A DNA stretch of 64,000 nt, taken from positions 1,488,001-1,552,000 of the forward strand of contig NZ_JAAAPL010000001.1 of NCBI RefSeq assembly GCF_011317445.1, in the 5' to 3' direction. The notes under the pieces were generated by a model that worked only from the letters and a program-made list of their open reading frames with translations, had not been told where the DNA came from and did no database searches. This DNA is from Chelativorans multitrophicus (lineage in GTDB: Bacteria > Pseudomonadota > Alphaproteobacteria > Rhizobiales > Rhizobiaceae). Below are positions 25,226 through 41,438 of the stretch, piece after piece. Both the position numbers and the translations under genes were made by a program. Each line of letters opens with the position of its first letter. The first letter of the stretch is position 1.

Positions 25226-28200
25226 ATGAACTTTGCAACGCGTCATCTCGGCGGGGGATTGGCGGGAGCATTCGCCATTTTAGCTATGTCCGGGTGGGGT
25301 TCCGAGGCGCAGGCGCAGGCCCAGCCCACCTTCGCATGCGACTCGAGCATATATCTTACGATGGGCGCCAACCCGACGCAGCTTGTCAGGGTCGACACGA
25401 GCACCAATCCGTTCGATTTCTCCGATACCGTAGGCCCGGGCGATTCCCCCGGCTACAACGGGGCCGGCTTCGACCCGTTCAGCGGATACATCTATGCCAC
25501 CCGCTGGGACGGCACCACGCACCGCCTCCTGCGAATCGGCAGCGACGGCTCCGTGCGGGACATGGGGCGCGTCGTCGGCGGCGGGATAAATACGACCGAT
25601 TTCCAAGCTAGCTTCGCGACCGGCGTGGTCGGCGCAGACGGCTTTCTCTACGTCAAGCACAATGGCGGCGCTGGCTCGGACACGATGTTCAGGATCGACC
25701 TTGGCGGCGACACCGTGGGAGACCGCAGCGCCACCGCCATTCCGCTCACCCTTAACGGCGTTTCAACCGCCATCGCTTCTGCAGACTCGGCCTGGCACAA
25801 TGGCCTGATCTACGCCCATGATCACGTCAACGATCGTCTCTATACGGTCGACCCCAGCAGCGGCGCGATAACTCTCCTGCCGCAGATCTCGGGCACCGGC
25901 GGCGCCTTCGGCTCGATGATCAGCGCCACCAACGGTGTTTTCGGCCGCGACAATAACGGCGGATTTTACCGGTTCGACACCACGACGGGGCGAGCGGTGC
26001 TGATCTCCAGCTCGCCGACGGGCGGTGGCGACGGCGCCAAGTGCCCTACGACGGCCGTCACTCTGCCCGCCGACACGCAGATCACCAAGACGGACTCCGC
26101 CCAAGAATATCTGGCGGGCCAGCAAGTGCAGTACATGATCGTTGTTTCCAACAAGGGTCCTTTCGGTGTTCAGAACGCACTGGTCAACGACCCGCTGCCT
26201 AGCGGGATCAGCCAGGCGAGTTGGAGCTGCGGCTCGCCGACCGGCGGTGCCTCATGCAGCAGCACAGCCACTCAATCCGGCGCCATCGTGGACTTCCCGG
26301 TAAACCTGCCGGCCAACTCGTCAGTCACCATTACGTTTACGATCGATGTGCCGGCGGATTACACAGGCGATCTCGTCAACACGACGACAGTGGTAAATCC
26401 GGGCCCGGATGTGCCGGACCCCGACCCGGACAACAATTCGGCCACCGATACCGACACCTCTACAAGGCTGACGCTGCAGAAAACGGTAATTAACGATGAC
26501 GGCGGCACGGCAACGGAGGCGAACTTCACCCTTTCAGCCAGCGGCCCGACACCAATCTCAGGCACATCCGGCGATCCGGCGGTGACGAATGCGACTATCC
26601 TGGCGGGCGACTACACCCTGTCGGAGAGCGCGCCTTCCGGCTATCAGGCGGTGGGGCCCTATAGCTGCTCCGTGAATGGTGCCGCCGCAGTGGATGGGAA
26701 CACACTGAGCCTGGCGGTGGGCGACGTCGCCGTCTGCACGATCACCAATGACGACCAGCCGGCCACGCTGACGTTGCAGAAAACAGTAGTAAACGACAAT
26801 GGCGGCACGGCAGCGGTTGCGGACTTCACGCTTTCGGCCAGTGGCCCGACTCCGATCTCCGGCACCTCCGGCGATGCGGCGGTGACGAATGCACTGGTGG
26901 ATGCGGGCAGCTACACGCTGTCGGAGTCCGGGCCCGCCGGCTATGCGGCCTCGCTTTACAGTTGCTCGATCGATGGCGGGGCGGCCGTTGATGGCAACAA
27001 CCTGACCCTGGGAAGCGGGCAGAACGCGGTTTGCACGATCACCAATAATGACGAGCAGGCGACTCTGACGCTGCAGAAAGCCGTGGTGAATGATGATGGC
27101 GGCACGGCCGTGGTGGCGGACTTCATGCTTTCGGCGAGCGGCCCGACACCGATCTCCGGCACGTCCGGTGATCCGGCTGTGACAAATGCGCCGGTGGACG
27201 CCGGCGCCTACACGCTGTCGGAAACCGGTCCAGCCGGTTATGCGGCACTCTACAGTTGCTCGATTGATGGCGGCGCGGCCGTTGATGGCATCAATCTGAC
27301 ATTGGACAGCGGTCAGAGCGCCGTCTGCACCATCACCAATGACGACCAACCGGCCACGCTGACATTGCAGAAAACAGTCGTGAACGACAATGGCGGCACG
27401 GCAGCGGTTGCTGACTTCACGCTTTTGGCCAGTGGCCCCACTCCGATCTCCGGCACGTCCGGCGATGCGGCGGTGACGAACGCACCGGTGGATGCGGGCA
27501 GCTATACGCTGTCGGAGACCGGGCCGACCGGCTATGCGGACTCGCTTTACAGTTGCTCGGTCGATGGCGGGGCGGCCGTTGATGGCAACAACCTGACCCT
27601 GGGCAGCGGGCAGAGCGCGGTTTGCACGATCACCAATGATGACGAGCAGGCGACGCTGACGCTGCAGAAAACGGTGGTCAACGACAACGGTGGCACGGCG
27701 ACGGTTGCGGACTTCACGCTTTCGGCGAGCGGCCCGACACCGATCTCCGGCACGTCCGGTGATCCGGCGGTGACGAATGCGCCAGTGGACGCCGGCGCCT
27801 ACACGTTGTCGGAAACCGGCCCAGCCGGCTATGGGGCACTCTACAGTTGCTCGGTCGACGGCGGCGCGGCCGTTGATGGCGCCAATCTGATATTGGACAG
27901 CGGTCAGAACGCCGTCTGCACGATCACCAACGACGATGAGCAGGCGATCCTGACGCTGGAGAAAGTCGTCGTAAACGACAATGGCGGAACGGCGGCGGCT
28001 GCGGATTTCACGCTTCTGGCCGATGGCCCCACTCCGATCTCCGGCACGTCCGGCGATGCGGCGGTGACGAACGCGCCTGTGGATGCGGGCAGCTACACGC
28101 TTTCGGAGACCGGGCCGGCGGGCTATGCGGCCTCGCTCTACAGCTGCTCGATTGATGGCGGCGCGGCTGTTGATGGTAACGATCTGACGCTTGGTAGCGG

Positions 28201-31066
28201 GCAGAATGCGGTTTGTACCATCACCAATAACGACCAGTCCGCGACCCTGACACTGCGAAAGACCGTCGTGAATGATGATGGCGGCACGGCGACGGTTGCG
28301 GATTTCACCCTTTCGGCGAGCGGGCCGATTCCGATCTCCGGCGCATCGGGTGATCCGGCGGTGACGAATGCGCCGATAGACGCAGGCACCTATACGCTTT
28401 CCGAGACCGGACCTTCGGGCTACGCTCCCACGCTTTACAGTTGCTCGATCGACGGCGGGACGGCTGTCGACAGCAACACGCTGAACCTCGGCAGCGGGCA
28501 GAGCGCCGTCTGCGAAATCACCAACGACGACTTTGCCCCGGTCAAGGCGCTGACCGGCGAGGACGGAATCATTTCCGGTGTCGCGGAGCCGGGCGAGACA
28601 CTCACCTACACCTTGACCCTGACCAATAACGGGGCCAGCACCGCAACATACGATCTCAAAGACAACATCGACGACAACACGACATATGTGGCGGGTTCGG
28701 CGACTGTGAACGGCATAGCGCACGAGCCTACCGGACCGGACCCGCTCCTTTGGGACGATCTTCCTGTCCCCGCCGGAAGTACGGCAAGGGTCGTTTATTC
28801 GGTTAAGGTCGCGGATCCTCTTCCGGACGGGGTGACGACCATCGGCAACGCTGCAACCGACGACTGCGCCCTAAACCCCGATGCCTGCGTCACCATACCG
28901 GCGGCAGGCAAGGCGGTACCTTCGAAAGCATTAACCGGGGAGGACGGTATTATCCCCGATGCCGCCGAGCCGGGCGAAACACTGACCTACACGGTAATCC
29001 TGACCAATAATGACGGCAATCCCGCGCCCTATGATTTGAAAGACGATATCGACGACGCAACCATCTATGTGACCGGCTCCGCATCGATCGATGGGACACC
29101 ACGCGAGCCGGTGGGCGCAGATCCTCTAACCTGGGACAATTTGGTCGTTCCTGCCAACGGCACTCTGACTGCGGTCTATTCGGTGAAAGTGGCCGATCCC
29201 CTTCCCGACGGGGTCACGGAGATCCGCAATGCCGCGACCGACGATTGCGACGCAAATCCGGATGCGTGCGTCACGACCCCCGCCGCCGGAAAGGCGGAAC
29301 CGTCAAAGGCTCTGACAGGCGAGAGCGGGGTAGCGCCGGACGTTGCCGAGCCCGGCGAAACCTTGACCTATACAATTACGCTGACGAACGGGCACTCCCA
29401 GGCAGCACCCTATGACCTTGTCGACAACATCGACGACAACACGGCATATGTGGCAGGTTCGGCGACCGTCGACGGTGCAGCACGGGAGCCCACGGGAAGC
29501 GATCCCCTGCTGTGGAGCGACTTGATCATTCCGGCCAATGGCGCCGTCAACGTGGTTTATCAGGTGCGGGTTGCCGATCTACTCCCGGAGGGTGTGACGT
29601 CGATTGGCAATGTTGCCTATGACGAGGGCGATCCGGAGCCGAAGTGCGACGTGATGCCAACGCCGCCCAACTGCGTGCCTACCCCGGCGCAAAGGACCGG
29701 GCTCGAATTGGTCAAGAAGGGCGCATACGACCACGACGGCAATGCGGCGGCGATTGCGGGCGACAAGATCCTCTACACTTTCACGGTGACCAACACGGGC
29801 AATGTGCCGCTGGCCGAGGTCACACCCGTGGATGAAGGGCCCACCTTCAATGGCATGAAGGGGACGGGTGCCCTCTCGCCCTTCACGCCCGCTCCGCTGA
29901 CGCTCAATCCCGGCCGAAGCCAGGTTTTCCAAGCGACCTACACACTCAGTCAGACCGACATCGACAATGGCGCTGGAATCGAGGATGGCGTGCGGAACAT
30001 GGCCATTGCAATGGGCTACGCCAACGGCACGCGTGTTACCGGCACACCGGTTGAATCTAAGGAGAGCGTCTGGTCGCTGGCACTGCCGGCGCCAAAACCG
30101 CTTACGGTGGTGAAGCAGGCGCTGGTGCGCGCTGTCCGTCGCGGCGAACAGGCCCCGTTCATTATACAAGTCGTCAACGATGCCGGCTCCCCCGCATCCG
30201 GAATCACCGTGATCGACACTGTGCCGCCGGGCTTCCGCTATGTGGAGGATTCGGCAACGGTGGATGGGGTGGAAGTGTCGCCGGAGATCGCCGGACGGCA
30301 AATCCGCTTCACCGGTATCACCGTACCCGGCAATGGCGAGGTGCAGATCCGGCTCAGGCTGCTGGCGCTCTCCTCGGCCGGGCCGGGCGAGCACGTCAAT
30401 CTAGCCCATGCCGAGGACCGGTCCGGCCACATGAGCAATCAGGCACGCGCAGCGGTCGAGATCCTGGCCGAGCCGGTGTTCGACTGCGGAGACATCGTCG
30501 GCAGGGTGTTCGATGACCGGAACGGCAACGGCTACCAGGATCAGGGCGAGCCGGGGCTGCCGGGCGTGCGGCTCGCCACGGTGAAGGGGTGGCTGGTGAC
30601 GACGGACGCCCATGGCCGCTTCCATGTCGCCTGCGCCGACCTGCCGGACCAGCGCATCGGGTCGAACTTCATCATGAAGCTCGATACGCGCACGCTGCCT
30701 TCGGGCTATCGCGTGACGACGGAAAATCCGCGCGTGGTGCGGCTGACGGCGGGCAAGATGACAAAGCTCGATTTCGGGGCGTCGATCGGCAGGGTGGTGC
30801 GGCTCGATCTCACGGGCGAGGCGTTCGAACCCGGCAGGGTAGATCTCCGGTCCATCTGGGTGGCCGGCATTGACGAGCTAATCGAGGTGCTTTCCGAGGA
30901 ACGCTCGGCGCTGCAGCTCTTCTATATCGACGCGGGCAGCGATCTAGCGCTGGCAAAAGAGCGCATGCGCCTCATGAAAAAGCTGATCTCCGAACGCTGG
31001 CGAGAGCGGCCACGGGCCTACTCCTTGGAGATCGAGACGCGTCTTGAAGCGCGTGGTGAGCCTTGA
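25226..31066 (+). CDS. Giant exported repeat protein: DUF6923-like, prealbumin/SpaA-like repeats, DUF11-like repeats, SdrD-B-like, OmpA-like C-terminus
   Basis: The 1,946-aa protein has a signal peptide (GGGLAGAFAILAMSGWGSEAQAQA). Approximate order: DUF6923-like domain, residues 29-280; DUF11-like domain, 276-413; seven ~98-100-aa prealbumin-like repeats, 415-1103, each with a Cys pair (YSCS, AVCTITN). Then three ~125-aa DUF11-like repeats, 1105-1490 (KALTGEDGI, EPGETLTYT); a DUF7507-like domain to ~1622; a further DUF11-like domain to ~1747; an SdrD-B-like domain with Ca2+-type loop FDDRNGNGYQDQGEPG, ~1752-1852; and a degenerate OmpA-like domain, ~1854-1946. No LPXTG motif is present. It is probably a surface or peptidoglycan-linked stalk. 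The ATG at 25226 fits the signal peptide but lacks a strong ribosome site. Confidence 0.8.
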   Translation: MNFATRHLGGGLAGAFAILAMSGWGSEAQAQAQPTFACDSSIYLTMGANPTQLVRVDTSTNPFDFSDTVGPGDSPGYNGAGFDPFSGYIYATRWDGTTHRLLRIGSDGSVRDMGRVVGGGINTTDFQASFATGVVGADGFLYVKHNGGAGSDTMFRIDLGGDTVGDRSATAIPLTLNGVSTAIASADSAWHNGLIYAHDHVNDRLYTVDPSSGAITLLPQISGTGGAFGSMISATNGVFGRDNNGGFYRFDTTTGRAVLISSSPTGGGDGAKCPTTAVTLPADTQITKTDSAQEYLAGQQVQYMIVVSNKGPFGVQNALVNDPLPSGISQASWSCGSPTGGASCSSTATQSGAIVDFPVNLPANSSVTITFTIDVPADYTGDLVNTTTVVNPGPDVPDPDPDNNSATDTDTSTRLTLQKTVINDDGGTATEANFTLSASGPTPISGTSGDPAVTNATILAGDYTLSESAPSGYQAVGPYSCSVNGAAAVDGNTLSLAVGDVAVCTITNDDQPATLTLQKTVVNDNGGTAAVADFTLSASGPTPISGTSGDAAVTNALVDAGSYTLSESGPAGYAASLYSCSIDGGAAVDGNNLTLGSGQNAVCTITNNDEQATLTLQKAVVNDDGGTAVVADFMLSASGPTPISGTSGDPAVTNAPVDAGAYTLSETGPAGYAALYSCSIDGGAAVDGINLTLDSGQSAVCTITNDDQPATLTLQKTVVNDNGGTAAVADFTLLASGPTPISGTSGDAAVTNAPVDAGSYTLSETGPTGYADSLYSCSVDGGAAVDGNNLTLGSGQSAVCTITNDDEQATLTLQKTVVNDNGGTATVADFTLSASGPTPISGTSGDPAVTNAPVDAGAYTLSETGPAGYGALYSCSVDGGAAVDGANLILDSGQNAVCTITNDDEQAILTLEKVVVNDNGGTAAAADFTLLADGPTPISGTSGDAAVTNAPVDAGSYTLSETGPAGYAASLYSCSIDGGAAVDGNDLTLGSGQNAVCTITNNDQSATLTLRKTVVNDDGGTATVADFTLSASGPIPISGASGDPAVTNAPIDAGTYTLSETGPSGYAPTLYSCSIDGGTAVDSNTLNLGSGQSAVCEITNDDFAPVKALTGEDGIISGVAEPGETLTYTLTLTNNGASTATYDLKDNIDDNTTYVAGSATVNGIAHEPTGPDPLLWDDLPVPAGSTARVVYSVKVADPLPDGVTTIGNAATDDCALNPDACVTIPAAGKAVPSKALTGEDGIIPDAAEPGETLTYTVILTNNDGNPAPYDLKDDIDDATIYVTGSASIDGTPREPVGADPLTWDNLVVPANGTLTAVYSVKVADPLPDGVTEIRNAATDDCDANPDACVTTPAAGKAEPSKALTGESGVAPDVAEPGETLTYTITLTNGHSQAAPYDLVDNIDDNTAYVAGSATVDGAAREPTGSDPLLWSDLIIPANGAVNVVYQVRVADLLPEGVTSIGNVAYDEGDPEPKCDVMPTPPNCVPTPAQRTGLELVKKGAYDHDGNAAAIAGDKILYTFTVTNTGNVPLAEVTPVDEGPTFNGMKGTGALSPFTPAPLTLNPGRSQVFQATYTLSQTDIDNGAGIEDGVRNMAIAMGYANGTRVTGTPVESKESVWSLALPAPKPLTVVKQALVRAVRRGEQAPFIIQVVNDAGSPASGITVIDTVPPGFRYVEDSATVDGVEVSPEIAGRQIRFTGITVPGNGEVQIRLRLLALSSAGPGEHVNLAHAEDRSGHMSNQARAAVEILAEPVFDCGDIVGRVFDDRNGNGYQDQGEPGLPGVRLATVKGWLVTTDAHGRFHVACADLPDQRIGSNFIMKLDTRTLPSGYRVTTENPRVVRLTAGKMTKLDFGASIGRVVRLDLTGEAFEPGRVDLRSIWVAGIDELIEVLSEERSALQLFYIDAGSDLALAKERMRLMKKLISERWRERPRAYSLEIETRLEARGEP
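26468..28534 (+). repeat. Seven tandem ~294-300-bp coding repeats in alternating A/B order
   Basis: Units start at 26468, 26768, 27065, 27359, 27656, 27950 and 28247. Units 2, 4 and 6 are 297 bp and encode GDAAVTNA and LYSCS after an extra Ser. Units 3 and 5 are 294 bp and encode GDPAVTNAPVDAGAYTLSET. The first and last units are divergent. The A-B-A-B-A pattern points to duplication of a two-unit ~591-bp block. Confidence 0.9.
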
Positions 31067-31530
31067 GACTGAAACCGCTTGGAACACCAAAACTCGGCCG
31101 CTTCTGTGGAGTTGCCTGCGGCGCAACCTCTGCAGCCTCATCGGTCTTTTGCCGCCTCAAGAATTGCACGTACTGTGCCGGCAGCAACATTATATCTTCA
31201 CCTCATGCGAGCAGTCGTCTCCAGGCATCGGGGCGGCTTCTCGTAAATCCGAGGACTAGCCCATGATCGGCGTGATTATCCTCGTGACGTGACCGGAAGC
31301 TGGCAAATAAAACCCTGATAAGCAGCATTCTAATACTCAGAGCAATATCCCGAAATACAAGACCATAGATCACGTGCCTAACTCCGCGGACTGGAATTGT
31401 CCGGTGCGGGGGTTTGCCTGGCATTTGATGCGGCGTCCGGGATCGAGGGGGATCCCATGCCATGCCAGGGCGGTCCGAGGTTGTCGCTCGGAAAACCGCA
31501 ACGGACGATTCACATACGAGGGAGTCGTCC
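31067..31530. other. Intergenic region between the two giant surface-protein genes
   Basis: These 464 bases contain no supported gene. The block at 31314-31337 matches one upstream of the first paralog. A terminator for the first gene is not obvious. The start region of the second gene has a clear GAGGGAG ribosome-binding site at 31518-31524. Confidence 0.5.
31314..31337 (+). promoter_or_regulatory. Conserved upstream block, copy 2
   Basis: CCTGATAAGCAGCATTCTAA matches the block at 25052-25080 apart from a four-base length difference. The surrounding ACCGGAAG upstream and ATCCCGAAATAC downstream also resemble the first leader. It lies about 195 bases before the start codon. Confidence 0.5.
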
Positions 31531-34500
31531 ATGCAGAAGCCGGTCTTTCACTCCGCTGTCGCAAGCAGCTTTCTTAGTCGTCGCCAAAACATAGGTGGGG
31601 CGGCAACACGGCGGCCGGGGGCCGTGCGCCGATATCCCCCTGGTCTTCTCAGGAGTTCCCTTACCGGTTTCTTGTTTTTAGCGGCTTGGGTTGCGTTCGG
31701 CACCACGGAAGAGGCTCGTGCCCAAGCGGGCCCCACCGTCTCGTGCACGACGGACGGCGCCATTTTCAACACGGCATACGATTCCTCGAGTGGCGGCATG
31801 CTGACTTCGGGCACCGATGCCAACTGGGACGTCGCCCTGACAACCACGGATATTACCGGTCCGCCGCCGGGAGGTCTGACCTACGCCGACGCCGTCGTCG
31901 TAGATGATCCACCTGCCAACTACACGACCTCGCCCTTTGGCAACGCCAACTGGATTTCTCATAACTCCACTGCCACTCAACCCACCCCCGAAAATTACGA
32001 CATCTTCTACCGCTACGAGTTCAGCCTCGATCCCTCGGTCGACCCCTCGACGCTCGATCTGCAGATGACCTTTTTTGCGGATAACTCGGTTTACGAGGTG
32101 TGGGTGAACGGGGTCGACCAGAATATCCAATCCGACTACGCTCCTGAGGATCCGTATTTCTACAGCGGATTCCAGGCCGGCAACGGAGCTAGCGGTGCCA
32201 TGAACGGCGCCTGGCAGACCGGCCTCAACACCATCGTCGTCCACATAAAGTCCGGACCTGGTGCGCAGGCGTTCATGGCGCAAATCGAGTCGACCTCCGT
32301 GTGCCAGCCAACGCTGACCCTGCGGAAGATTGTCGACAACTCTCAAGGGGGCAGCGCCGGGCCGGGCGACTTCACCCTGCAGGCTGAGGGGCCGACAACG
32401 ATTCAAGGCGTGATGGGCGACCCTGCCGTCACCGATGCGTCGGTCCCGGCGGGCACATATGCGCTGAGCGAGTCCTACACTGAACTTGGCTATGCTGCTT
32501 CCGAGTATAGCTGCGCGATTGACGGCGGGGCAGCAACGGATGGCAATTCCGTGGCATTGGAAAACGGTCAAAGCGCCGTCTGCACGATCACCAACACATT
32601 TTCTCCGTCCTTCGGCTCCTGCAGCCCATCCATGTATCTGGCGCAGAACGTTCCGACACAGCTCTTCCGCTTCGAAACCTCGGATAACCCGTTCGACGTC
32701 AATCCGATAGGGCCAGCCTCGAATAACCAGTACAACGGCATCGCGATGAACCCCATAGACAACTATATCTATGGCTTCGAGATCAACACTACCCCCCCAC
32801 GGTTGGCGCGCGTTGGCAGTGACGGCGGCGTGCAGGTGCTCGGAGAGATTGCCGGCTTTCCGAATGCCACTGTCACAGGTGAATTCAGTCCGGACGGCAC
32901 ACTCTATTCGGCGACTGCCGGTCGGCTCTATACCGTTAATGTAACAAACAGAACGGCGACATCCGTGCCGCTGACCGGGGCCGCCACCCACGGTCCGGAC
33001 CTCGCATGGTATAACGGGCTGCTCTACAGCGTCACCGGTACTGGCCAACTCGTTACGATCGACCCGGCCACGGGCTTTGTCGACACCGTCGGCGAGACCG
33101 GCCTGACACAGAATTCGTTCGGCGGCATGTTCGGCGCCAGCAACGGCATCTTCGGCTCGAACAATGTTGGCGGCTTCTACCGGTTCAATGTAGAAACAGG
33201 CCGCGGAACACTCATCTCAGACCTTCAAGGCTCGGGCCAGAACGACGGCGCCAAATGCGCCACCACGCCGCTGACCTTTCCGGCCGACGTGACGATCGCC
33301 AAGGACGACGGCAGCGAGACCTACACGGCGGGCGGCGAGGTGGTTTACACGATCGTCGTTTCCAATGACGGTCCGTTCGGGGTGGCAGGGACATTGGTGA
33401 ACGATCCGCTCCCCGACGGTATCACCGATGCGGAGTGGACTTGCGGCAGCCCGACCGGCGGTGGGTACTGCAGCGTGCCAAGCGGCACGGGCGCCATCAC
33501 CGACGTGCCGGTGGACCTCCCGGTGGACGGCGACGTGGGCAGCTCCGTCACCTTCACGCTCACCATGACGGTGCCGGCAGACTTTGAGGGCGATCTCGTC
33601 AATACGGCGACGGTCACCAACCCATCTGACGTGCCGGATCCCGACCCGAACGACAACGAATCCACGGACACCAACACGGTGCCCGTTATCCGTAAGGTCA
33701 AGGAGCTGGTTGGCGAGAGCGGTGAACTGGCCGGTGTTGCCGAGCCGGGCGAGACGCTCACCTACGAAATCACGCTCACCAACCCCTATGACTCGGCGCG
33801 CGGCAGTTACGAGCTGATCGACGATTATGACGAAAACCTGACGGTGGTAGATGCCGCCGGCGGCACGGACGATGGCGATCTGATCACCTGGACGGGGCTC
33901 ACCGTTCCGGCGCACGACGGAACCAATCCGGGCCAACTGGTGCTCACGGTACAGCTCCAGGTCGTCGATCCGATCCCCGAGAGCGTAACCAGGATCAGCA
34001 ATATCGTCTACGAGCCCAATGAGATCGTTGACTGCCGGGTGACGCCCACCCAGTGCTACGAATTGCCGGCCTCCGCGCGTATCCTGCGGATGAAGCAATT
34101 GGTCGCCGAGGATGGCCTCACGGAAGGTGTTGCCGAGCCGGGCGAAAGGCTCACCTACGAGATCACGCTCACCAATACCGGTGGCCCGGCGGACGACTAT
34201 GCCATCCAGGACCTGCTCGACGAGAACACTGTCTTTGTCTCGGCCGACAATGGCGGCACCCACTCGGGGGGCAATCCCGGCGGTGGTGTGGTGGATTGGA
34301 CCGGGCTCAGCATTCCGGAGCACGACGGGACCAATCCGGGCCAACTGGTGCTGACGGTGATAGCGACGGTGGTCGACCCACTGCCCGACGGAGCGATTGG
34401 GATATCCAACATGATCAAGGAGCCGGGCGACCCGGATCCCGTATGTCCGTCGGACGACTGTGTGACGGTGCCGTCCCAGTTGACCGGGCTCGAGTTGGTC

Positions 34501-35856
34501 AAGACGGGAACCTATGAGGACACCGACGGCAACGGCTTCGCCAATGTGGGTGACACGATCCACTACAAGTTCACGGTAACCAATACCGGGAACGTGGTGC
34601 TGCAGGACGTGGTTCCGGAGGATGCCGGTCCGACATTTGACGGCCAGGAAGGCGGCGGCGAGCTGTCGGCTTTCGATCCGGCCTCGGCAACGCTGGAGCC
34701 GGGCGAGGAGACTGTGTTCGAGGCCAGCTATGTCCTGACGCAGGCCGATATCGACAATGGAGCCGGTGTCGAGGAGGGCGTCGAGAACACGGCTACGGCG
34801 GTAGGTTATGCCAATGGCGATCGGGTAACCGGTACGGAGGTGAACTCACCAGGCAGCGGAACCTCTTTGGACTTGCCGGCTGCGGCGAGCAATATCTCGA
34901 TTGCGAAGATCGCCAATCTGCGCGCCATCCGGCGCGGCGAGCAGGCGCCGTTCACGATCCGGGTGACGAACCTTGCCGGGTCGCGGGTGGACGGGCTGAC
35001 GGTGGTCGACCGGATCCCGCCGGGCTTCCGCTATGTGGAGGGCTCGGCGACGGTCGGCGATGTTGCCGTGGAGCCGGTGGAGGCGGGGCGCGAGATCCGC
35101 TTCGAGAACCTGTCGCTGGAAGGCAATCAGGAAATCGAGATCCGGCTGCGAATGCTGGCCTTGAGCTCGGCGGGTCCCGGCGAGCATGTCAACCGGGCGC
35201 GCGCCGAGGATGCCTCGGGACGGCAGCTGGCGCCGGAAGCGCAGGCGGTGGTGGAGATCCTGGCGGAGCCGGTGTTCGACTGCGGCGACGTGATCGGCAA
35301 GGTGTTCGACGACGTCAACCGCAACGGCTACCAGGACCAGGGCGAGCCGGGGCTCCCCGGCGTGCGGGTGGCCACCGTCAAGGGCTGGCTCATCACCACG
35401 GATGAATATGGCCGCTTCCATGTGGCCTGCGCCGACCTGCCGGAGGCGCGCATCGGTTCGAACTTCATCATGAAGCTGGACACGCGCACGCTGCCGACGG
35501 GCTATCGCCTGACGACGGAGAACCCGCGCGTGGTGCGGCTGACGGCGGGCAAGACGACGAAGCTGAACTTCGGCGCCGCGGTGGGACGCGTCGTCCGTCT
35601 GGAATTGACGGACGCGGCCTTCGCGCCGGACGCCGCGCAGCTGAAGCCGGAATGGGCAGAGAGCGTCGACCGGCTGATCGGCGTCCTTGCCGAGGAGCAG
35701 TCGGTGCTGCGGCTGACCTACTTCTACGGCGGTGTCGACCGGGCATTGGCCGGCGCGCGGATCATGCAGGCGAGAGAGCTGATCGCGGAACGCTGGCGCA
35801 GGAGAGGAGGTGCTTACCGACTGGAGATCGAGATGCGAGTGGAGGCGGTTCAATGA
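31531..35856 (+). CDS. Second giant exported repeat protein, paralog with DUF6923, DUF11-like, SdrD-B-like and OmpA-like domains
   Basis: The 1,441-aa protein has a long N-terminus (~65 aa) with a hydrophobic segment LTGFLFLAAWVAFG and an ARAQA end, like an extended signal peptide. A unique beta-sandwich-like domain (~67-260, including MTFFADNSVYEVWVNGVDQ) follows, then one prealbumin-like repeat, a DUF6923-like domain, DUF11-like repeats, a DUF7507-like domain, an SdrD-B-like domain (FDDVNRNGYQDQGEPG) and an OmpA-like end. The last ~200 residues are highly similar to the upstream paralog. The ATG at 31531 has GAGGGAG upstream. Its TGA overlaps the next gene's ATG, tying it to the barrel protein. 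Confidence 0.82.
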   Translation: MQKPVFHSAVASSFLSRRQNIGGAATRRPGAVRRYPPGLLRSSLTGFLFLAAWVAFGTTEEARAQAGPTVSCTTDGAIFNTAYDSSSGGMLTSGTDANWDVALTTTDITGPPPGGLTYADAVVVDDPPANYTTSPFGNANWISHNSTATQPTPENYDIFYRYEFSLDPSVDPSTLDLQMTFFADNSVYEVWVNGVDQNIQSDYAPEDPYFYSGFQAGNGASGAMNGAWQTGLNTIVVHIKSGPGAQAFMAQIESTSVCQPTLTLRKIVDNSQGGSAGPGDFTLQAEGPTTIQGVMGDPAVTDASVPAGTYALSESYTELGYAASEYSCAIDGGAATDGNSVALENGQSAVCTITNTFSPSFGSCSPSMYLAQNVPTQLFRFETSDNPFDVNPIGPASNNQYNGIAMNPIDNYIYGFEINTTPPRLARVGSDGGVQVLGEIAGFPNATVTGEFSPDGTLYSATAGRLYTVNVTNRTATSVPLTGAATHGPDLAWYNGLLYSVTGTGQLVTIDPATGFVDTVGETGLTQNSFGGMFGASNGIFGSNNVGGFYRFNVETGRGTLISDLQGSGQNDGAKCATTPLTFPADVTIAKDDGSETYTAGGEVVYTIVVSNDGPFGVAGTLVNDPLPDGITDAEWTCGSPTGGGYCSVPSGTGAITDVPVDLPVDGDVGSSVTFTLTMTVPADFEGDLVNTATVTNPSDVPDPDPNDNESTDTNTVPVIRKVKELVGESGELAGVAEPGETLTYEITLTNPYDSARGSYELIDDYDENLTVVDAAGGTDDGDLITWTGLTVPAHDGTNPGQLVLTVQLQVVDPIPESVTRISNIVYEPNEIVDCRVTPTQCYELPASARILRMKQLVAEDGLTEGVAEPGERLTYEITLTNTGGPADDYAIQDLLDENTVFVSADNGGTHSGGNPGGGVVDWTGLSIPEHDGTNPGQLVLTVIATVVDPLPDGAIGISNMIKEPGDPDPVCPSDDCVTVPSQLTGLELVKTGTYEDTDGNGFANVGDTIHYKFTVTNTGNVVLQDVVPEDAGPTFDGQEGGGELSAFDPASATLEPGEETVFEASYVLTQADIDNGAGVEEGVENTATAVGYANGDRVTGTEVNSPGSGTSLDLPAAASNISIAKIANLRAIRRGEQAPFTIRVTNLAGSRVDGLTVVDRIPPGFRYVEGSATVGDVAVEPVEAGREIRFENLSLEGNQEIEIRLRMLALSSAGPGEHVNRARAEDASGRQLAPEAQAVVEILAEPVFDCGDVIGKVFDDVNRNGYQDQGEPGLPGVRVATVKGWLITTDEYGRFHVACADLPEARIGSNFIMKLDTRTLPTGYRLTTENPRVVRLTAGKTTKLNFGAAVGRVVRLELTDAAFAPDAAQLKPEWAESVDRLIGVLAEEQSVLRLTYFYGGVDRALAGARIMQARELIAERWRRRGGAYRLEIEMRVEAVQ

Positions 35857-38800
35857 GCGCGCTGATCGGGAAGACGGGCATGAATACCACGCATATTGTT
35901 TGCCGCAATCGCACGCTCCTGCTGGCCGGCATCGCGCTCATGGCGCTTGTCGGCAGCGGCCCGGCCCTGGCCGAGGGGGAGGCTTGTGCGGGCGCCGGTT
36001 GCGCCGCGCCGATCCGCGGCAAGGCCGTCGATGACGGCACGGCCGGACACCTTCCGGTCGGCGCCAACACCGAAACGGAAACGGCGGCCGACGCGCCGGC
36101 GATTCCCTTCATGATCAAGGTCGACGGCGAGACGGTCGACAAGAGCGGCGAGCGCGCCAAGGAAGCGCTGGCGCCCGGCCAGGCCGAACCCGCATCGAAG
36201 CCGGTGGACCGGCAGCGCCAGACCGATGTGGCGCTGTCGGCGGTCGACATCCAGGTCAAGTTCGACGGGCTCGAGGCGGACCGGCTGCTCAATGTCTCGA
36301 CCATGCCGGTCGAACGCCTCTACCGGCCGGGCGAGACGATCACATTCCTCGCCACGGCCAACTACCCCGCCTTCATCGACCGCGCCGAGATCCGCATTTA
36401 TGAAGCGGGCGAGAAAGCAGATGTCCGCCCGGCGGCGGTGGTGCCGGTGACGATCAACGGCACCGCCACCTGGACCATGCCGGAAGGCGGCGAGGCGGGC
36501 TACGCCTATGTGCTGCGCGTCTATGACGCCAAGGGCCGCTATGACGAGACGGTGCCGCTGACCATCGCCCGCAGCGGGCGGGAGGACTTGGCCAGCCACA
36601 AACAGGCCGAGGCGGCAGCGCCAGGCTGGGGCGAGGACCGCACGGCCTTCCACAACATCCCCGTCAAGGGCGGCGCGGTGACGGTGCACGGCCGGCACGT
36701 GCCGCCGGGCTACTCCGTCGAGGTGCTGGGCGAGACGATCCCGCTCGACCCGGACCAGGCCTTCGTGGTCAGCCGCATCCTTCCGCCGGGCGAGCATGTG
36801 GTCGACGTGGCGGTCGACGGCCCGTCGAAGAGCGGCGGCCTCTCCTTCTTCCGCGAGATCAACATCCCCGACAATGACTGGTTCTATGTGGCGCTCGCCG
36901 ACCTCACCGTCGGCAAGCGCATGGGAGACGACGCCATCGAGGAGGTGCGCCCGGGCGAATATGACGAGGTCTATTCCAAGGGGCGGCTGGCCTTTTACCT
37001 CAAGGGCAAGATCAAGGGCGAATATCTCCTGACGGCGGCCGCCGATACGGGCGAGGACGACCTGGAAAGCCTGTGGCGCAATCTCGACAAGCAGGACCCG
37101 CGCCGGCTGCTGCGCCGCCTCGATCCGGACGATTACTATCCGGTCTATGGCGACGACTCGACCTTTGTCGAGGACGCGCCGACCAAGGGCAAGTTCTATG
37201 TCCGGCTGGAGCGCGGCGACAGCCATGTGATGTGGGGCAATTACAAGACCCAGATCACCGGCACCGAGTTCCTGCGCTCCGACCGCGCGCTCTACGGGGC
37301 CTCCGCCGTCTACCGTTCCGAAGAGGCGACCTCGTTCGGCGAGCGGCGCACCGAGGTCACCCTCTACGGCGCGCAGCCCGACACGCTTCCCTCACGCGAG
37401 GTGTTCCTCGGCACCGGCGGCTCGGCCTACTTCCTGAAGCGCCAGGACATCGTCGAAGGCTCGGAAACGGTGCGGGTGGAGACCCGCGACGCGGTGACCG
37501 GGCGGGTGGTCGCGCGGCAGACGCTCTCCTATGGCGAGGACTACTCCTTCGACTATATGCAAGGGGTGATCATCCTGCGCCGGCCGCTCTCCTCGATGAC
37601 CGGCACCGACGCGCCGGTGCGCAACGGCGCGCTCGGCGGCAACGACCTTTATCTGACGGTCGACTACGAATACGAGCCGCTGGCGAGCGATGTCGACGGC
37701 TATGTCTATGGCGGGCGGGCCCAGCACTGGCTGAACGAGAAGGTGCGGGTCGGCGTCACCGGCATGGACGATTCGACCGATCTTGCCGACCAGAGGGCCT
37801 ATGGCGCCGACATTGAGATCCGCCAATCCGAGCGCACCTTCCTGGAGGCGGAGATCGCCCATTCCAAGGGGCGCGGCTTCGACCTGTCGCAATCGGCCGA
37901 TGGCGGGCTGACCTGGGGTGACGACCGGGCGGACGCGCCGGCCGATGCCGACGACGAGGGCACCGCCTGGCGCGTGCGCGGCCAGGTGGCGCTGGAAGAG
38001 CTCGGCGCCGGCATCAACGGCACGGTGGGCGGCTATTACGAGGAGAAGGAAGCGGGCTTCTCCACGCTCTACGACCATGCCGATGTCGACCGCCGCATCT
38101 GGGGGGCGCATGCCAATCTCGATCTCACCGAGGAGCTGGCGCTGGCGCTCGCCTATGACGATCTGAAGGACGCGGACGGGCAGCTCCGCCGCGACGGCGC
38201 CGGCAGCGTCAGCTGGCAGTTCGACCAGCACTGGAAGCTCTCCTTCGGCGTCGCCTATTCGGAGATCATGTCGCCGCTGGCGCGCCGGGTCGGCAAGTCC
38301 GGCTATAACGGCTCCCGGCTCGACGCCGGGGCGCGCGTCGACTACCGGATCGATGAGGACCGCCTGGTCTACGCCTTCGCGCAAGGCACCCTTGACCGCT
38401 CGCGCGACATCGACCGCAACGACCGCGCCGGCATCGGCGCCGAGTGGCGGCTGACCGAGAAGGTGGGGCTGACCGGCGAGATCTCCTACGGCACCCACGG
38501 CATCGGCGGGCTGGCCGGCATCACCTACGACCCGACCGCCGACGACCATTACTATCTCGGCTACAAGCTCGACCCGGACCGCGCCTTCCAGCTGGACAAC
38601 AGCCGCGACCTCTACGGCAGCGACAAGGGCACGGTCGTCGCCGGCATGCGGCGGCGCATGGGCGATGCGGTGTCGGCCTATTCGGAGAGCAATTACGACC
38701 TTTACGGCAACCGCAGGTCGCTCACCCAGACCTATGGCGTCATCTACACCCCCGACGCCCAGTGGACCGTCGACGGCGGGCTGGAGATCGGCCGCGTGCA

Positions 38801-39635
38801 AGACGAGACCGTCTATGAGGACGCGGCCGGCAATCCCACCTTGCGCGAGGACTTCGACCGCTACGCCCCCTCGCTTTCGCTCGGCTACAAGGACGAGGAG
38901 CGCGGCATCGATGCGCGAGTGCGCGGCGAGGTCAGGATCGAGCGCTCCGACGACGGCACGCGCGATCAGAACTCCTACCTGTTCGCCGCCGGCCTCGGCT
39001 GGAAGACCAGCCCCGACTGGCGGCTCCTCGCCCATGTCGACGCGGTCCTCTCCGACACCAGGTCCGCCCAGGTCTTCTTCGCCGACACGGACTATGTCGA
39101 GGCCTCGCTCGGCTACGCCTACCGGCCGGTCGAGAACGACCGCCTGAACGCGCTGTTCAAATACACCTGGCTTTACGACCTGCCGGGCAACAACCAGGTG
39201 ATCTCGGGCGCCACCGGCGACAGCTTCGCCCCGGCCCAGCGCAGCCACATCCTGTCGGCCGACGTCAATTACGACCTGATGCCCTGGCTCACCGTCGGCG
39301 GCAAATACGGCTTCCGCATCGGCCAGGTCAAATACCGCACCGACGACGGCTCCGGCACCGGCTTTGCGGAAGAGTGGCAGGAATCCTCCGCCCATCTCGG
39401 CATCCTGCGCGCCGACCTGCACCTCATCAAGAAATGGGACCTCCTGGTCGAGGGCCGCGTCATGCACATCCCCGGCGTCGACACCGACTATGGCGCCCTC
39501 GCCGCCCTTTACCGCCATGTCGGCGACAACTTCAAGGTCGGCGTCGGCTACAACTTCGGCCGCTTCTCCGACGACCTCCGCGACCTCACACTCGACGACC
39601 AGGGCGTCTTCCTCAACGTCGTCGGAAAATTCTAG
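35853..39635 (+). CDS. Large predicted outer-membrane beta-barrel protein coupled to the repeat protein
   Basis: The 1,260-aa protein has a signal peptide (LLLAGIALMALVGSGPALA). An N-terminal periplasmic part follows, with Ig-like segments (RLYRPGETITFLATANYPAF; VTVHGRHVPPGYSVEVLG). After about residue 370 it is rich in alternating polar/aromatic strands typical of a barrel: VYGDDSTFVEDAPTKGKFYV, GDSHVMWGNYKTQITG, many Tyr/Asp turns, and the end GVFLNVVGKF with terminal Phe. No TonB box or plug domain is evident. ATGA overlap with the repeat-protein gene and a GGAGG inside its end imply translational coupling. It may anchor or export the neighbouring surface proteins. No named family is certain. 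Confidence 0.75.
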   Translation: MSALIGKTGMNTTHIVCRNRTLLLAGIALMALVGSGPALAEGEACAGAGCAAPIRGKAVDDGTAGHLPVGANTETETAADAPAIPFMIKVDGETVDKSGERAKEALAPGQAEPASKPVDRQRQTDVALSAVDIQVKFDGLEADRLLNVSTMPVERLYRPGETITFLATANYPAFIDRAEIRIYEAGEKADVRPAAVVPVTINGTATWTMPEGGEAGYAYVLRVYDAKGRYDETVPLTIARSGREDLASHKQAEAAAPGWGEDRTAFHNIPVKGGAVTVHGRHVPPGYSVEVLGETIPLDPDQAFVVSRILPPGEHVVDVAVDGPSKSGGLSFFREINIPDNDWFYVALADLTVGKRMGDDAIEEVRPGEYDEVYSKGRLAFYLKGKIKGEYLLTAAADTGEDDLESLWRNLDKQDPRRLLRRLDPDDYYPVYGDDSTFVEDAPTKGKFYVRLERGDSHVMWGNYKTQITGTEFLRSDRALYGASAVYRSEEATSFGERRTEVTLYGAQPDTLPSREVFLGTGGSAYFLKRQDIVEGSETVRVETRDAVTGRVVARQTLSYGEDYSFDYMQGVIILRRPLSSMTGTDAPVRNGALGGNDLYLTVDYEYEPLASDVDGYVYGGRAQHWLNEKVRVGVTGMDDSTDLADQRAYGADIEIRQSERTFLEAEIAHSKGRGFDLSQSADGGLTWGDDRADAPADADDEGTAWRVRGQVALEELGAGINGTVGGYYEEKEAGFSTLYDHADVDRRIWGAHANLDLTEELALALAYDDLKDADGQLRRDGAGSVSWQFDQHWKLSFGVAYSEIMSPLARRVGKSGYNGSRLDAGARVDYRIDEDRLVYAFAQGTLDRSRDIDRNDRAGIGAEWRLTEKVGLTGEISYGTHGIGGLAGITYDPTADDHYYLGYKLDPDRAFQLDNSRDLYGSDKGTVVAGMRRRMGDAVSAYSESNYDLYGNRRSLTQTYGVIYTPDAQWTVDGGLEIGRVQDETVYEDAAGNPTLREDFDRYAPSLSLGYKDEERGIDARVRGEVRIERSDDGTRDQNSYLFAAGLGWKTSPDWRLLAHVDAVLSDTRSAQVFFADTDYVEASLGYAYRPVENDRLNALFKYTWLYDLPGNNQVISGATGDSFAPAQRSHILSADVNYDLMPWLTVGGKYGFRIGQVKYRTDDGSGTGFAEEWQESSAHLGILRADLHLIKKWDLLVEGRVMHIPGVDTDYGALAALYRHVGDNFKVGVGYNFGRFSDDLRDLTLDDQGVFLNVVGKF

Positions 39636-40064
39636 CCAACAAAGCAAGACCCCGCGCTTACACCGCACGGGGTCTTGCGGAAATAGGCCTGGGGCACAGC
39701 AATGCGGGGCATGTGCCAGGCTACACGAGGCGCGAGGCTGGGCGAGCCAGGAATGTGGGCTCGATCACCGCTTACAAGCGGCTGATCGCAGGGTGAAGCC
39801 CCTGCCTCCCGGCGGACACCGCTCACTCACTGCATGGACATTCTGTAGATGATTCACGACCGCCACGGCCGCGTGGCTATTTTCGGCGGATCACTTCCGG
39901 CAGCGTGGTCTGTTCAGTCTCTTAGGTCAGGTGACCAGTCGCTGCTCTTCCACGAGTTGCTTGGGCCGCCGGATCTCCCGCAGCCCATGCTCGCAAATCG
40001 CTTAACGAAAAAGTCGGCTTTGATAGCGCGAGCTTACGGCAAGCAGCCGACAGCTCGCTTGAAG
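39636..40064. other. Intergenic region between surface-protein locus and ectoine cluster
   Basis: These 429 bases hold the stem-loop at 39644-39678 and otherwise no gene I can support. Open frames here overlap the barrel gene end or lack ribosome-binding sites. It separates convergent transcription units. Confidence 0.5.
39644..39678 (+). terminator. Strong stem-loop after the barrel gene
   Basis: GCAAGACCCCG and CGGGGTCTTGC form a perfect 11-bp stem around a 13-base loop, nine bases after the stop. No T-run follows, so it may act with Rho or as a 3'-end stabiliser. Confidence 0.65.
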
Positions 40065-41438
40065 TCATCCCAACACGCTATCGACGGCAGAGGCCGTCGC
40101 GGCGATAACCTTGTCCGCTTCTTCTTTCGTCAGGCACAGCGGTGGGGCGAAGCCCAGAATGTCGCCCTGAGGCATTGCGCGGCCGATCACGCCGCGTTCG
40201 GCGAGTGCGGCGGCGATCTGCGGCCCGATCTTCTTCGACGCATCGAAAAAGACGCGATCGTCACGATCGGCGACGAATTCGACGGCGGCCAGCATACCAT
40301 CGCCCCGGACCTCGCCGACATTGGGGTGACTGCCCACTGCATTCGCCAGTTCTGCACGGAAATAGGCGCCGACCGTGCCCGCATTCTCGACCAGATTCAT
40401 TTCATCGATCAGCTCGAGATTGGCAACGCCGGCGGCCGCGCAGAGCGGATGCGCCGAATAGGTCCAGCCATGGCCGAGCGCGCCGAGCTTGTCGGAGCCT
40501 TGGACCAATACCTGCCAGACCTTGTCCGAGACAATGACGCCCGAAAGTGGGGCATAGGCCGAGGTCAGGCCCTTGGCGATGGTGATGAGATCCGGCTTTA
40601 TGCCGTAGTGGTCGGAGCCGAACATGGTGCCAAGACGGCCAAAGCCGGTCACCACCTCGTCGGCGATGAGAAGCACGTCGTACTTCTTCAGCACGGCCTG
40701 AATCTTTTCCCAATAGCCGGCCGGCGGCGGCACGATGCCTCCTGTGCCGAGGATCGGCTCGCCAATGAAGGCGGCCACCGTGTCCGGACCTTCCGCCAGA
40801 ATCATCTCCTCCAGTTTGTCGGCGCAGTACTGCGAGAACTGCTCCTCGCTCATGGAGCGGTCAGGGCGGCGGAAATAATAGGGCGCCTCGGTGTGCAGGA
40901 TCGGCGCACGCGGCAGGTCGAAGGCATTGTGGAAGAGATCGAGCCCGGTTAGCGAGCCGGTCATGATGCCGGAGCCGTGATAGCCGCGCCAGCGCGAGAT
41001 GATCTTCTTCTTCTCAGGCCGGCCGAGCACATTGTTGTAGTACCAGATCAGCTTGATGTTGGTCTCGTTGGCATCCGAGCCCGACAGGCCGAAATAGACG
41101 CGGCTCATGCCCTGCGGCGCACGATCGATGATCATCTTGGCGAGCCGGATGGAGGCGTCCGTGCCGTGGCCGACATAGGCGTGGTAATAGGCGAGATTCC
41201 TGGCCTGTTCGGCGATCGCGTCGGCGATCTTCTGGCGGCCATAACCGACATTGACGCAGTAGAGGCCAGCGAAGGCGTCGAGGCTCGTGCGGCCATTCAC
41301 GTCTGTAATGTAGACGCCCTCGCCACCGGCGACGACGCGGTTGGGCGATTCACCACGCGCATGCGTGCCCATATGGGTCGAGGGATGGAAGAAATGGTCG
41401 CGATCCCAGGCGTTGAGTTCGTTCGAGCGGTCGGTCAT
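40065..41438 (-). CDS. doeD: Class III aminotransferase, probable diaminobutyrate transaminase of ectoine breakdown
   Basis: The 457-aa PLP enzyme has the class III signatures FGLSGSDANETNIKLIWYYNN, SRWRGYHGSGIMTGSLTG, LLIADEVVTGFGRLG and the PLP lysine in TIAKGLTSAYAPLSG. Homologs include omega-amino acid:pyruvate transaminases. Its place next to a semialdehyde dehydrogenase, an AsnC regulator, an M24 hydrolase and an M20 deacetylase matches the doeD of ectoine degradation, where it removes the amino group of diaminobutyrate to give aspartate semialdehyde. The ATG at 41438 is chosen from an AGGA site and the usual MTDRSNELNAWDRDH start. GABA transaminase is the alternative. Confidence 0.85.
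   Translation of the reverse strand: MTDRSNELNAWDRDHFFHPSTHMGTHARGESPNRVVAGGEGVYITDVNGRTSLDAFAGLYCVNVGYGRQKIADAIAEQARNLAYYHAYVGHGTDASIRLAKMIIDRAPQGMSRVYFGLSGSDANETNIKLIWYYNNVLGRPEKKKIISRWRGYHGSGIMTGSLTGLDLFHNAFDLPRAPILHTEAPYYFRRPDRSMSEEQFSQYCADKLEEMILAEGPDTVAAFIGEPILGTGGIVPPPAGYWEKIQAVLKKYDVLLIADEVVTGFGRLGTMFGSDHYGIKPDLITIAKGLTSAYAPLSGVIVSDKVWQVLVQGSDKLGALGHGWTYSAHPLCAAAGVANLELIDEMNLVENAGTVGAYFRAELANAVGSHPNVGEVRGDGMLAAVEFVADRDDRVFFDASKKIGPQIAAALAERGVIGRAMPQGDILGFAPPLCLTKEEADKVIAATASAVDSVLG

Follow-up and report, generated by a model that had tools for sequence, protein, structure and literature searches.

A dedicated outer-membrane barrel paired with very long exported stalk proteins in Chelativorans multitrophicus: a candidate Gram-negative surface system with split-domain relatives

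Introduction

What do two very long exported proteins have to do with the outer-membrane barrel protein encoded directly behind them? The question is raised by a locus of Chelativorans multitrophicus within a stretch of 64,000 nucleotides, here called the window (assembly GCF_011317445.1, contig NZ_JAAAPL010000001.1, positions 1,488,001 to 1,552,000 of the forward strand), to which positions refer unless another locus is named. It encodes the stalk proteins P1 and P2, followed by the barrel protein BAR (Table 1). A first-pass annotation of the sequence had described two giant exported proteins and a barrel whose start overlaps the stop of the second by ATGA, all of which is confirmed by the gene coordinates (overlap at 35853–35856), and had proposed that the three form an undescribed surface system. 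From comparison with related genomes we conclude that many Gram-negative bacteria carry a two-gene unit, in which one gene encodes a surface-type stalk of great length and the other a dedicated barrel that probably holds or exports it, and that in some relatives the stalk looks, by its sequence, to be assembled from several proteins with mutually completing cut domains.

Results

Both stalk proteins end in a conserved C-terminus (CT) comprising a DUF11 neck, an SdrD_B domain and an OmpA-like fold. BAR was matched in 21 of a set of 61 relatives that included the own genome. From a separate scan of named genomes we examined the best 80 of at least 568 barrel relatives, located by the barrel alone. 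By the CT profile, a CT protein lies upstream of the barrel and on the same strand at 63 of these 80 loci, whilst seven are at contig ends and ten are without one. The CT and the barrel match are within 276 bases of each other in 60 of the 63 and at 778–1,224 bases in the other three, and in every case the CT match ends 1–7 residues before the stop. The four bases at that stop read ATGA in 49 loci, GTGA in seven, TTGA in one and otherwise in six; by chance alone, ATGA would be expected at roughly one in four TGA stops. In a sample spread evenly over the phylum, BAR was matched in 57 of 398 genomes, many of them with only a partial match to its distant central part, and 30 loci were fetched. 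At the near-full-length barrel loci among them (L152–L171), a neck/CT protein stands upstream in 19 of 20 and downstream in the remaining one (G242, L158/L208), with the CT match stopping at position 234–236 of 322 in L164–L166.

Stalk and barrel also occur as a single chain. In the nearest fusion, L045 (same order), CT and BAR form one frame of 2,079 aa; a CT-like neck and a more distant barrel, the best stretch of which reaches only 64–180 bits, share a frame in L024 (own genome), L066 (Acinetobacter haemolyticus), L186, L187, L189 and L190. The order in the fusions is stalk, neck, barrel, and passenger and barrel follow each other in the same way in type Va autotransporters. At the level of whole genomes, CT was found in 28 and BAR in 24 of 199 family genomes, with both in 21 (Fisher p 1.7e-19), the scan having scored the best candidates of each genome (at most 11 for CT and three for BAR). 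That stalk and barrel belong together is supported by gene order, fusions and co-occurrence across genomes, as well as by the homogenized cassette described below; a lack of co-occurrence was what the first-pass annotation had named beforehand as refuting its proposal. Two of the genomes (G471 and G560) each encode four CT proteins alongside a single barrel that is not linked to them. A barrel can thus serve several clients, and P1 and P2 appear to share theirs in this way, P1 being a second stalk protein and the two not being separate parts of the three-part system initially envisaged.

Contig C8 of the C. multitrophicus genome itself encodes a further stalk protein, the third, called P3; counted from its Met it is at least 1,601 aa long, with GEVED, DUF6923, DUF7927, DUF11 and DUF7507 domains. 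The end of C8 is an exact 88-base match to 34876–34963, and the end of contig C10 an exact 88-base match to 39546–39633, the last base of which is the first of the BAR stop codon. Because of these exact overlaps we infer a collapsed identical repeat, with the whole barrel included, behind two different stalks; a second anchor cassette, identical over 4,758 bp, thus appears to lie behind P3, the stalk of which is 41–42 % identical to that of P2 where the two can be aligned. In the complete sequences of Sinorhizobium meliloti T073, cassette copies are present on both pSymA and accessoryA: the neck and CT agree in 960 of 960 bases, BAR in 3,759 of 3,786 (99.3 %) and the stalk repeats at 97.3 %, whilst the tips are 51–61 % identical where alignable, and the similar block runs ∼170 bases beyond the BAR stop and then ends. 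Judged by these comparisons, the anchor end and the barrel behave as a cassette, the identity of which is presumably caused by recombination. Contig pairs starting inside the barrel with identical DNA were also seen in G002/G036 (L054 and L055, 1–291, 291 bases; L052 and L053, 1–119, 119 bases), as expected for collapsed near-identical barrel copies. A broken copy was found in G015 (L046 3779–9771), where the gene for the barrel is broken into three, two of the pieces being separated by ∼2.2 kb.

BAR consists of a beta-rich N-terminal region and ∼34 barrel strands, by manual count of the listed elements of an AlphaFold2 model of fair quality (predicted local distance difference test, pLDDT, 75.0; predicted template modelling score, pTM, 0.68). 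The best structural matches of this model in VIA were ushers and SprA, all partial and with large root-mean-square deviations: usher 9bog_D (Z 16.5, 12.8 Å over 362 residues), usher 9fxs_D (Z 15.4, 6.0 Å over 328) and SprA 6h3i_A (Z 14.3, 17 Å over 538). TpsB was absent among the fold matches listed, a listing that does not exclude an absent family. By sequence, BAR matches no known family. Neither Pfam nor NCBIfam gave a match that passed a cut-off, including to Plug, TonB_dep_Rec and the usher profile (PF00577), and none at E ≤ 0.1 to Autotransporter, IAT_beta/intimin, POTRA or ShlB (TpsB) in Pfam; the PDB sequences held no convincing relative, and a search with the BAR profile gave none at E ≤ 1. 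Homology to ushers (five from K-12), LptD and FhuA was rejected, profile comparison giving probabilities of 0.2, 1.3 and 0.1 %, respectively.

The AlphaFold2 model of the P2 CT (pLDDT 91.5, pTM 0.58) shows an Ig-like neck, SdrD_B and then a β-α-β-α-β end. The P2 neck superimposes on the solved CLIPPER domain 9ifr (Z 12.8, 2.9 Å over 119 residues). The VIA fold alignment of the CT model spans residues 18–252 only, with the OmpA-like part outside. None of 55 homologous C-termini matches Pfam OmpA (PF00691) at E ≤ 1, and a PDB profile search with the CT end returned no OmpA entry at E ≤ 10. Comparison of the CT end with six OmpA domains in hhalign was weak (probability 16 %, E 0.0016; with a longer profile, 10.5 % and 0.003; negative control, 0.2 % and E 0.33), and the ligand loop, read by eye, is shortened in the alignment. 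The label ‘OmpA-like’ given to these ends is thus without Pfam support, but is suggested by the predicted topology and the weak profile match: on model and sequence, P1 and P2 end in a degenerate OmpA-like fold at most. Given a fold that is at most degenerate, and the lack of any Pfam OmpA match among the members, the peptidoglycan binding that had been ascribed to these ends is doubtful. Canonical OmpA domains do stand at the same stalk/barrel junction in some other lineages, namely in the N-terminal part of the barrel protein in L065, L152, L153 and L154 and, in L169, at the C-terminal end of the stalk, and were not matched in L156, L161, L168, L170, L112, L024 and L066. Five of ten stalk proteins without a linked barrel continue beyond the CT into an additional tail, with [VLG]Y[KR] as its last residues (Table 1), the linked ones ending 1–7 residues past the CT match.

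The Pfam matches at or above cut-off are seven SpaA_2, DUF6923, DUF11, DUF7927, DUF7507 and fn3_5 in P1, and DUF6923, DUF11, DUF7507 and SpaA_2 in P2; SdrD_B falls under its curated cut-off in both (21.9 and 23.0 bits vs 29.7). The domain order of the two proteins is similar, as first reported, but not identical, a single SpaA_2 and an unassigned domain preceding DUF6923 in P2 and seven SpaA_2 following it in P1. Each of these seven repeats contains, by pattern match, a Cys pair and the Lys, Glu and Asn that we take to be the CnaB isopeptide triad. The unassigned domain of P2 (31726–32310, before SpaA_2) matched nothing in Pfam and nothing convincing in the PDB, and is a possible tip domain; DUF6923 in P1, P2 and P3, and GEVED in P3, are candidates for a terminal adhesive region. 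A sortase had been reported as lacking, and this is borne out by a search of the whole genome, which gave no match at E ≤ 0.001 (the same search gave matches in three of 14 control genomes). P1 and P2 have the repeated Ig-like stalk domains by which fibrillar adhesins are defined (PMC8286594). The surface anchors regarded as usual in that definition are LPXTG, IAT, YadA, LysM and others, and no Pfam match to a known anchor of this type was obtained in P1 or P2. For 40 of 61 CT proteins the frame is complete in its locus, at 641–3,312 aa (median 1,782). Display outside the periplasm is favoured because these lengths were judged too great for a stretched form inside it.

In ten loci of relatives (L120, L127, L134, L136, L143, L209, L210, L215, L219 and L220) the stalk is cut inside a DUF7507 domain. 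An exported protein, the acceptor, ends in the cut domain (for example in ...YTVTQSDVDTLQ) and retains the predicted isopeptide Lys, whilst the next protein, the donor, opens right after its signal peptide with the missing strands (for example TIDNTATATG...). Measured against a profile of 105 positions made from 16 intact DUF7507 domains, 19 of the 20 domains that reach a C-terminus end at positions 74–77 (16 of them at 76), vs 630 of 644 internal domains that end at 85 or later; L168 (13 bits, ending at position 71, no motif) was left out of the acceptor list and L219 13604–14578 was included. The Pfam DUF7507 match to the cut domain covers positions 1–83 of 105 in L143 3655 and L127 4057, the best stretch in the other scanned proteins being another domain or a part. 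A donor is encoded by the next gene for 18 of the 19 acceptors, the exception being L220 426–2495. Among 32 intact domains, Lys is found at position 6 in 31, Asp at 41 in 29 and Asn at 81 in 30. Among the 19 acceptors, a pattern match located the Lys motif in 17 (missed in L127, where the Lys is visible in the alignment, and in L219 14636, which is without it), and aligned columns show the Asp in 17 (E in L120 5958, S in L219 14636); the donors have the Asn in 16 of 18, with one Asp and one Ser. Donor strands were assigned by eye for L120 7101, L134 6146, L209 8150, L215 7079, L219 10666 and L220 7766 and by pattern for the rest. Thus, at the level of sequence, an incomplete Ig end is paired with the missing strands on the next N-terminus, as in a donor-strand fibre, and the predicted isopeptide Lys and Asn are on different chains.

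A CT subunit and then BAR directly follow in L120, L127, L134, L136 and L143; in the genomes of L209, L210, L215 and L219, no BAR was found in the family genome scan. P1 and P2 of the window are unsplit. Programmed readthrough at the recurrent ...TQADVD.LQ stops was rejected, as a new signal peptide follows with no in-frame continuation in those read. For four genomes with CT only (G457, G483, G487 and G570), pseudogene decay was likewise abandoned in favour of split-domain chains; the remaining CT-only genomes are G016, G535 and G568.

The surroundings of the locus are ordinary, with a TRAP transporter upstream and, downstream, a 367-aa frame (39849–40952) and ectoine-hydrolase-like and other catabolic genes; the 367-aa frame had no Pfam or NCBIfam match and was not found in the relatives' loci L023–L062. 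The start of P2 was placed at 31531, and not at the ATG at 31462 (which would give 1,464 aa), because the paralogue on contig C8 starts at a Met homologous to 31531. The DNA upstream of P2 (31067–31545) and of P3 (L207) is related and includes a GTCCGGTG(C/T)GGGG stretch; no Rfam family was found at gathering scores in 19000–46000 that might mark a promoter or RNA element there. In relatives the downstream neighbours vary, the commonest Pfam family being present in six of the 109 frames scanned (of 178 listed), and a biotin-carboxylase-like gene, noted by eye, lies upstream in at least seven of nine loci with a solo barrel. The central BAR segment was also matched on plasmids of Pacificitalea, Acinetobacter and the cyanobacterium Kovacikia minuta, and from the last of these the BAR family may reach beyond Proteobacteria.

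Table 1. Features of the P1–P2–BAR locus and of related loci (window positions unless a locus is named)
Feature	Position	Strand	Description
P1	25226..31066	+	1,946 aa, signal peptide, exported stalk protein
P1 domain order			Signal peptide, DUF6923 (tip candidate), DUF11, 7 SpaA_2, DUF7927/DUF11, DUF7507, neck DUF11, SdrD_B, degenerate OmpA-like end
P1 SpaA_2 repeats	26456..28534	+	Seven, CnaB-type; Lys/Glu/Asn and Cys pair in each (pattern match)
P1 CT	30092..31048	+	Neck DUF11, SdrD_B, OmpA-like fold; CT profile of 322 positions, 495 bits
P2	31531..35856	+	1,441 aa, exported stalk protein
P2 domain order			N-terminal domain without Pfam match, SpaA_2, DUF6923, DUF11 repeats, DUF7507, CT
P2 CT	34885..35844	+	Neck DUF11, SdrD_B, OmpA-like fold; CT profile, 508 bits
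P2 degenerate OmpA-like domain	35569..35847	+	Strand-helix-strand-helix-strand in AlphaFold2 model
Anchor cassette	34876..39633	+	Neck, SdrD_B, OmpA-like fold and BAR; second, collapsed copy inferred from C8/C10 end overlaps
BAR	35853..39635	+	1,260 aa, signal peptide, outer-membrane barrel protein, ends ...GKF
FMIKVDG hairpin of BAR	36105..36146	+	Near N-terminus, docking candidate; motif in 66 of 76 related barrels
Conserved BAR segment	37386..37592	+	GTGGSAYFLKRQDI...DYxQGVIILRRPL, widely conserved; by aligned ranges, at what we take to be the usher-plug place in the structural alignment
Tailed stalk proteins	L211 1–2880; L212 9301–13851; L213 11052–14402; L216 4822–10593; L217 10502–14371		Extra C-terminal tail
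Solo barrels	L099, L102, L104–L107, L110, L121, L123, L221		Long N-termini

Discussion

The account that we favour, and hold to be reasonably probable, is that of a split, autotransporter-like adhesin system with a variable tip, an isopeptide-type stalk, a conserved neck and anchor, and a dedicated barrel, in which BAR is the partner of P1 and P2. The stalk protein would cross the inner membrane via its signal peptide. With BAR inserted in the outer membrane, the N-terminal tip and the stalk would come to lie outside the cell, whilst the neck and the degenerate OmpA-like domain would remain on the periplasmic side at the mouth of the barrel, docked there on the N-terminal portion of BAR. The barrel would serve as anchor and, most likely, also as export pore, amounting to autotransporter logic with passenger and barrel in two genes. 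One barrel would serve several stalk proteins, with recombination keeping neck and barrel uniform as tips and stalks diversify. The extracellular location of the stalk is deduced from its length and domains; the export route, direct contact of P1 and P2 with BAR, and adhesion are likewise predictions of this scheme.

A number of observations weigh against it. The BAR model is of middling quality, and no profile similarity of BAR to exporter families was found. The candidate docking hairpin is absent from the fused L045, and in the phylum set only five of 20 pairs have it, with 15 lacking it. Seven of the 28 genomes with CT are without a barrel; their CT matches are weak (171–303 bits vs 373–530 elsewhere, one partial match aside), and in G016 and G535 there is a stop inside. 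Conversely, three of the 24 genomes with BAR are without CT, all three barrels being truncated or fragments. Of the ten unlinked barrels, nine stand alone in one Chelativorans/Nitratireductor subgroup, whilst the tenth (L114) has a short upstream frame with a weak CT match. Ferric-siderophore-type ABC genes lie, by eye, near six of the nine named solo loci and L221, and on a plasmid of Phyllobacterium sp. 628 (L063 11995–19573) stalk and barrel are followed by genes for a siderophore-interacting protein, ExbB, ExbD and TonB. An iron link is possible because of these two neighbourhoods; as a general role of BAR it is disfavoured, the neighbours being varied, but it may apply to the solo subgroup.

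Four other explanations have to be weighed against a partnership in which BAR both holds and exports the stalk. The barrel could be an anchor only, with the stalk exported by another exporter and docking on BAR by its C-terminal end afterwards. This is unlikely. In its favour, BAR has no sequence match to any known protein exporter and stalk proteins are unlinked to the barrel in G471, G560 and G005; on the other hand, none of the families that recur in the scanned neighbours is an exporter, a separate exporter is awkward where stalk and barrel are fused in one chain, and the strand number of BAR is within the range of protein-conducting barrels. That BAR is a TonB-dependent (iron) receptor, with the stalk incidental or a surface lid, is improbable. 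The product name ‘TonB-dependent receptor’ is attached to it in seven of 23 plasmid records, and FecCD in two of 109 neighbours adds to the iron-type genes mentioned above, whereas the missing Plug and TonB_dep_Rec matches, the lack of profile similarity to FhuA, the fusion with a stalk protein and the fact that iron genes are not general neighbours all speak against a receptor.

It is very improbable that the stalk bridges peptidoglycan and outer membrane within the periplasm with nothing displayed: OmpA-type ends, canonical in some relatives, would suit such a bridge, but complete lengths of up to 3,312 aa, the degenerate end found here, variable tips including the GEVED of P3, and domains typical of surface stalks (PMC12617251) would not. 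Finally, the barrel or a part of it is on 23 plasmid records, and linkage might in principle be that of a passively hitch-hiking cassette of unrelated functions; this is the least probable account, given the fusions, the reversed-order pair, the chromosome-sized contigs across classes and the co-occurrence of unlinked genes.

A broader interpretation, for which we regard the chances as evenly balanced, is that the window shows a Gram-negative surface-fibre system in its single-chain form. Here too a dedicated large barrel would export and hold isopeptide-type stalks, and in other members multi-protein stalks would be joined via split CLIPPER_2 (DUF7507) domains, possibly covalently and sortase-free, ending in a neck/anchor subunit on the barrel. 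The mature N-terminus of each subunit would supply the last strands and the Asn to the preceding, Lys-bearing cut domain. If this is true, cut isopeptide domains are already used in nature to make fibres without sortase, possibly covalent ones; this would be relevant to the way in which strong surface threads arise on Gram-negative cells and would offer new protein-ligation pairs. Independently of this, the stalk–barrel pair is a concrete candidate with clear sequence signatures, present in Alpha-, Beta- and Gammaproteobacteria and often named ‘TonB-dependent receptor’ in existing records.

Whether the system is undescribed, as had been claimed, depends on the part considered. For the stalk–barrel pair, and for the split CLIPPER domains, no description was found among the top-ranked open-access literature; Gram-negative fibrillar adhesins that combine a DUF11/DUF7507 stalk with an ‘OmpA-like anchoring domain’ have, however, already been published (PMC12617251). 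Those CLIPPER (DUF11)/CLIPPER_2 (DUF7507) adhesins, such as Acinetobacter silvestris B9T28_05395, share with P1 and P2 a long exported protein, an N-terminal candidate tip, an isopeptide-type Ig stalk and an OmpA-like end; a word search of the paper gave neither ‘barrel’ nor ‘outer membrane’, whereas the P2 anchor combines a degenerate OmpA-like end with a dedicated barrel gene. Novel surface anchors are expected for fibrillar adhesins (PMC8286594).

Among systems with an outer-membrane pore, type V autotransporters and two-partner secretion likewise couple a passenger to its own or a neighbouring barrel, but BAR differs in its large strand number and in the missing Pfam matches to the autotransporter, intimin and TpsB families. 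Chaperone-usher pili (FimD) have in common with the present system the ushers as best structural matches of BAR and the donor-strand logic of the split domains, and differ in that the profiles of the five K-12 ushers bear no similarity to BAR, no chaperone family is among the common neighbours and the structural match is partial. The SprA translocon of type 9 secretion is also a very large barrel, with no sequence relation to BAR found among PDB chains and with a poor superposition. In LapA-type RTX adhesins, a periplasmic stopper holds a long adhesin in an outer-membrane pore; P1 and P2 would instead carry the stopper at the C-terminus and use a dedicated pore, and Pfam gave no match to RTX repeats.

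For the split domains, parallels exist in protein engineering and in archaea. SpyTag/SpyCatcher is an engineered pair of isopeptide catcher and strand. In DogTag/DogCatcher (PMC8878318), too, an isopeptide domain was divided by engineering into catcher and strand, whereas in the split stalks the cut is natural, lies at a gene boundary and would be closed by a predicted bond. The archaeal threads of Sulfolobus acidocaldarius are built from different proteins and with a different chemistry, linking an N-terminal amine to Asn from subunit n to n+2, yet they too combine donor-strand complementation with a proposed intersubunit isopeptide bond made without a known sortase (PMC9715654).

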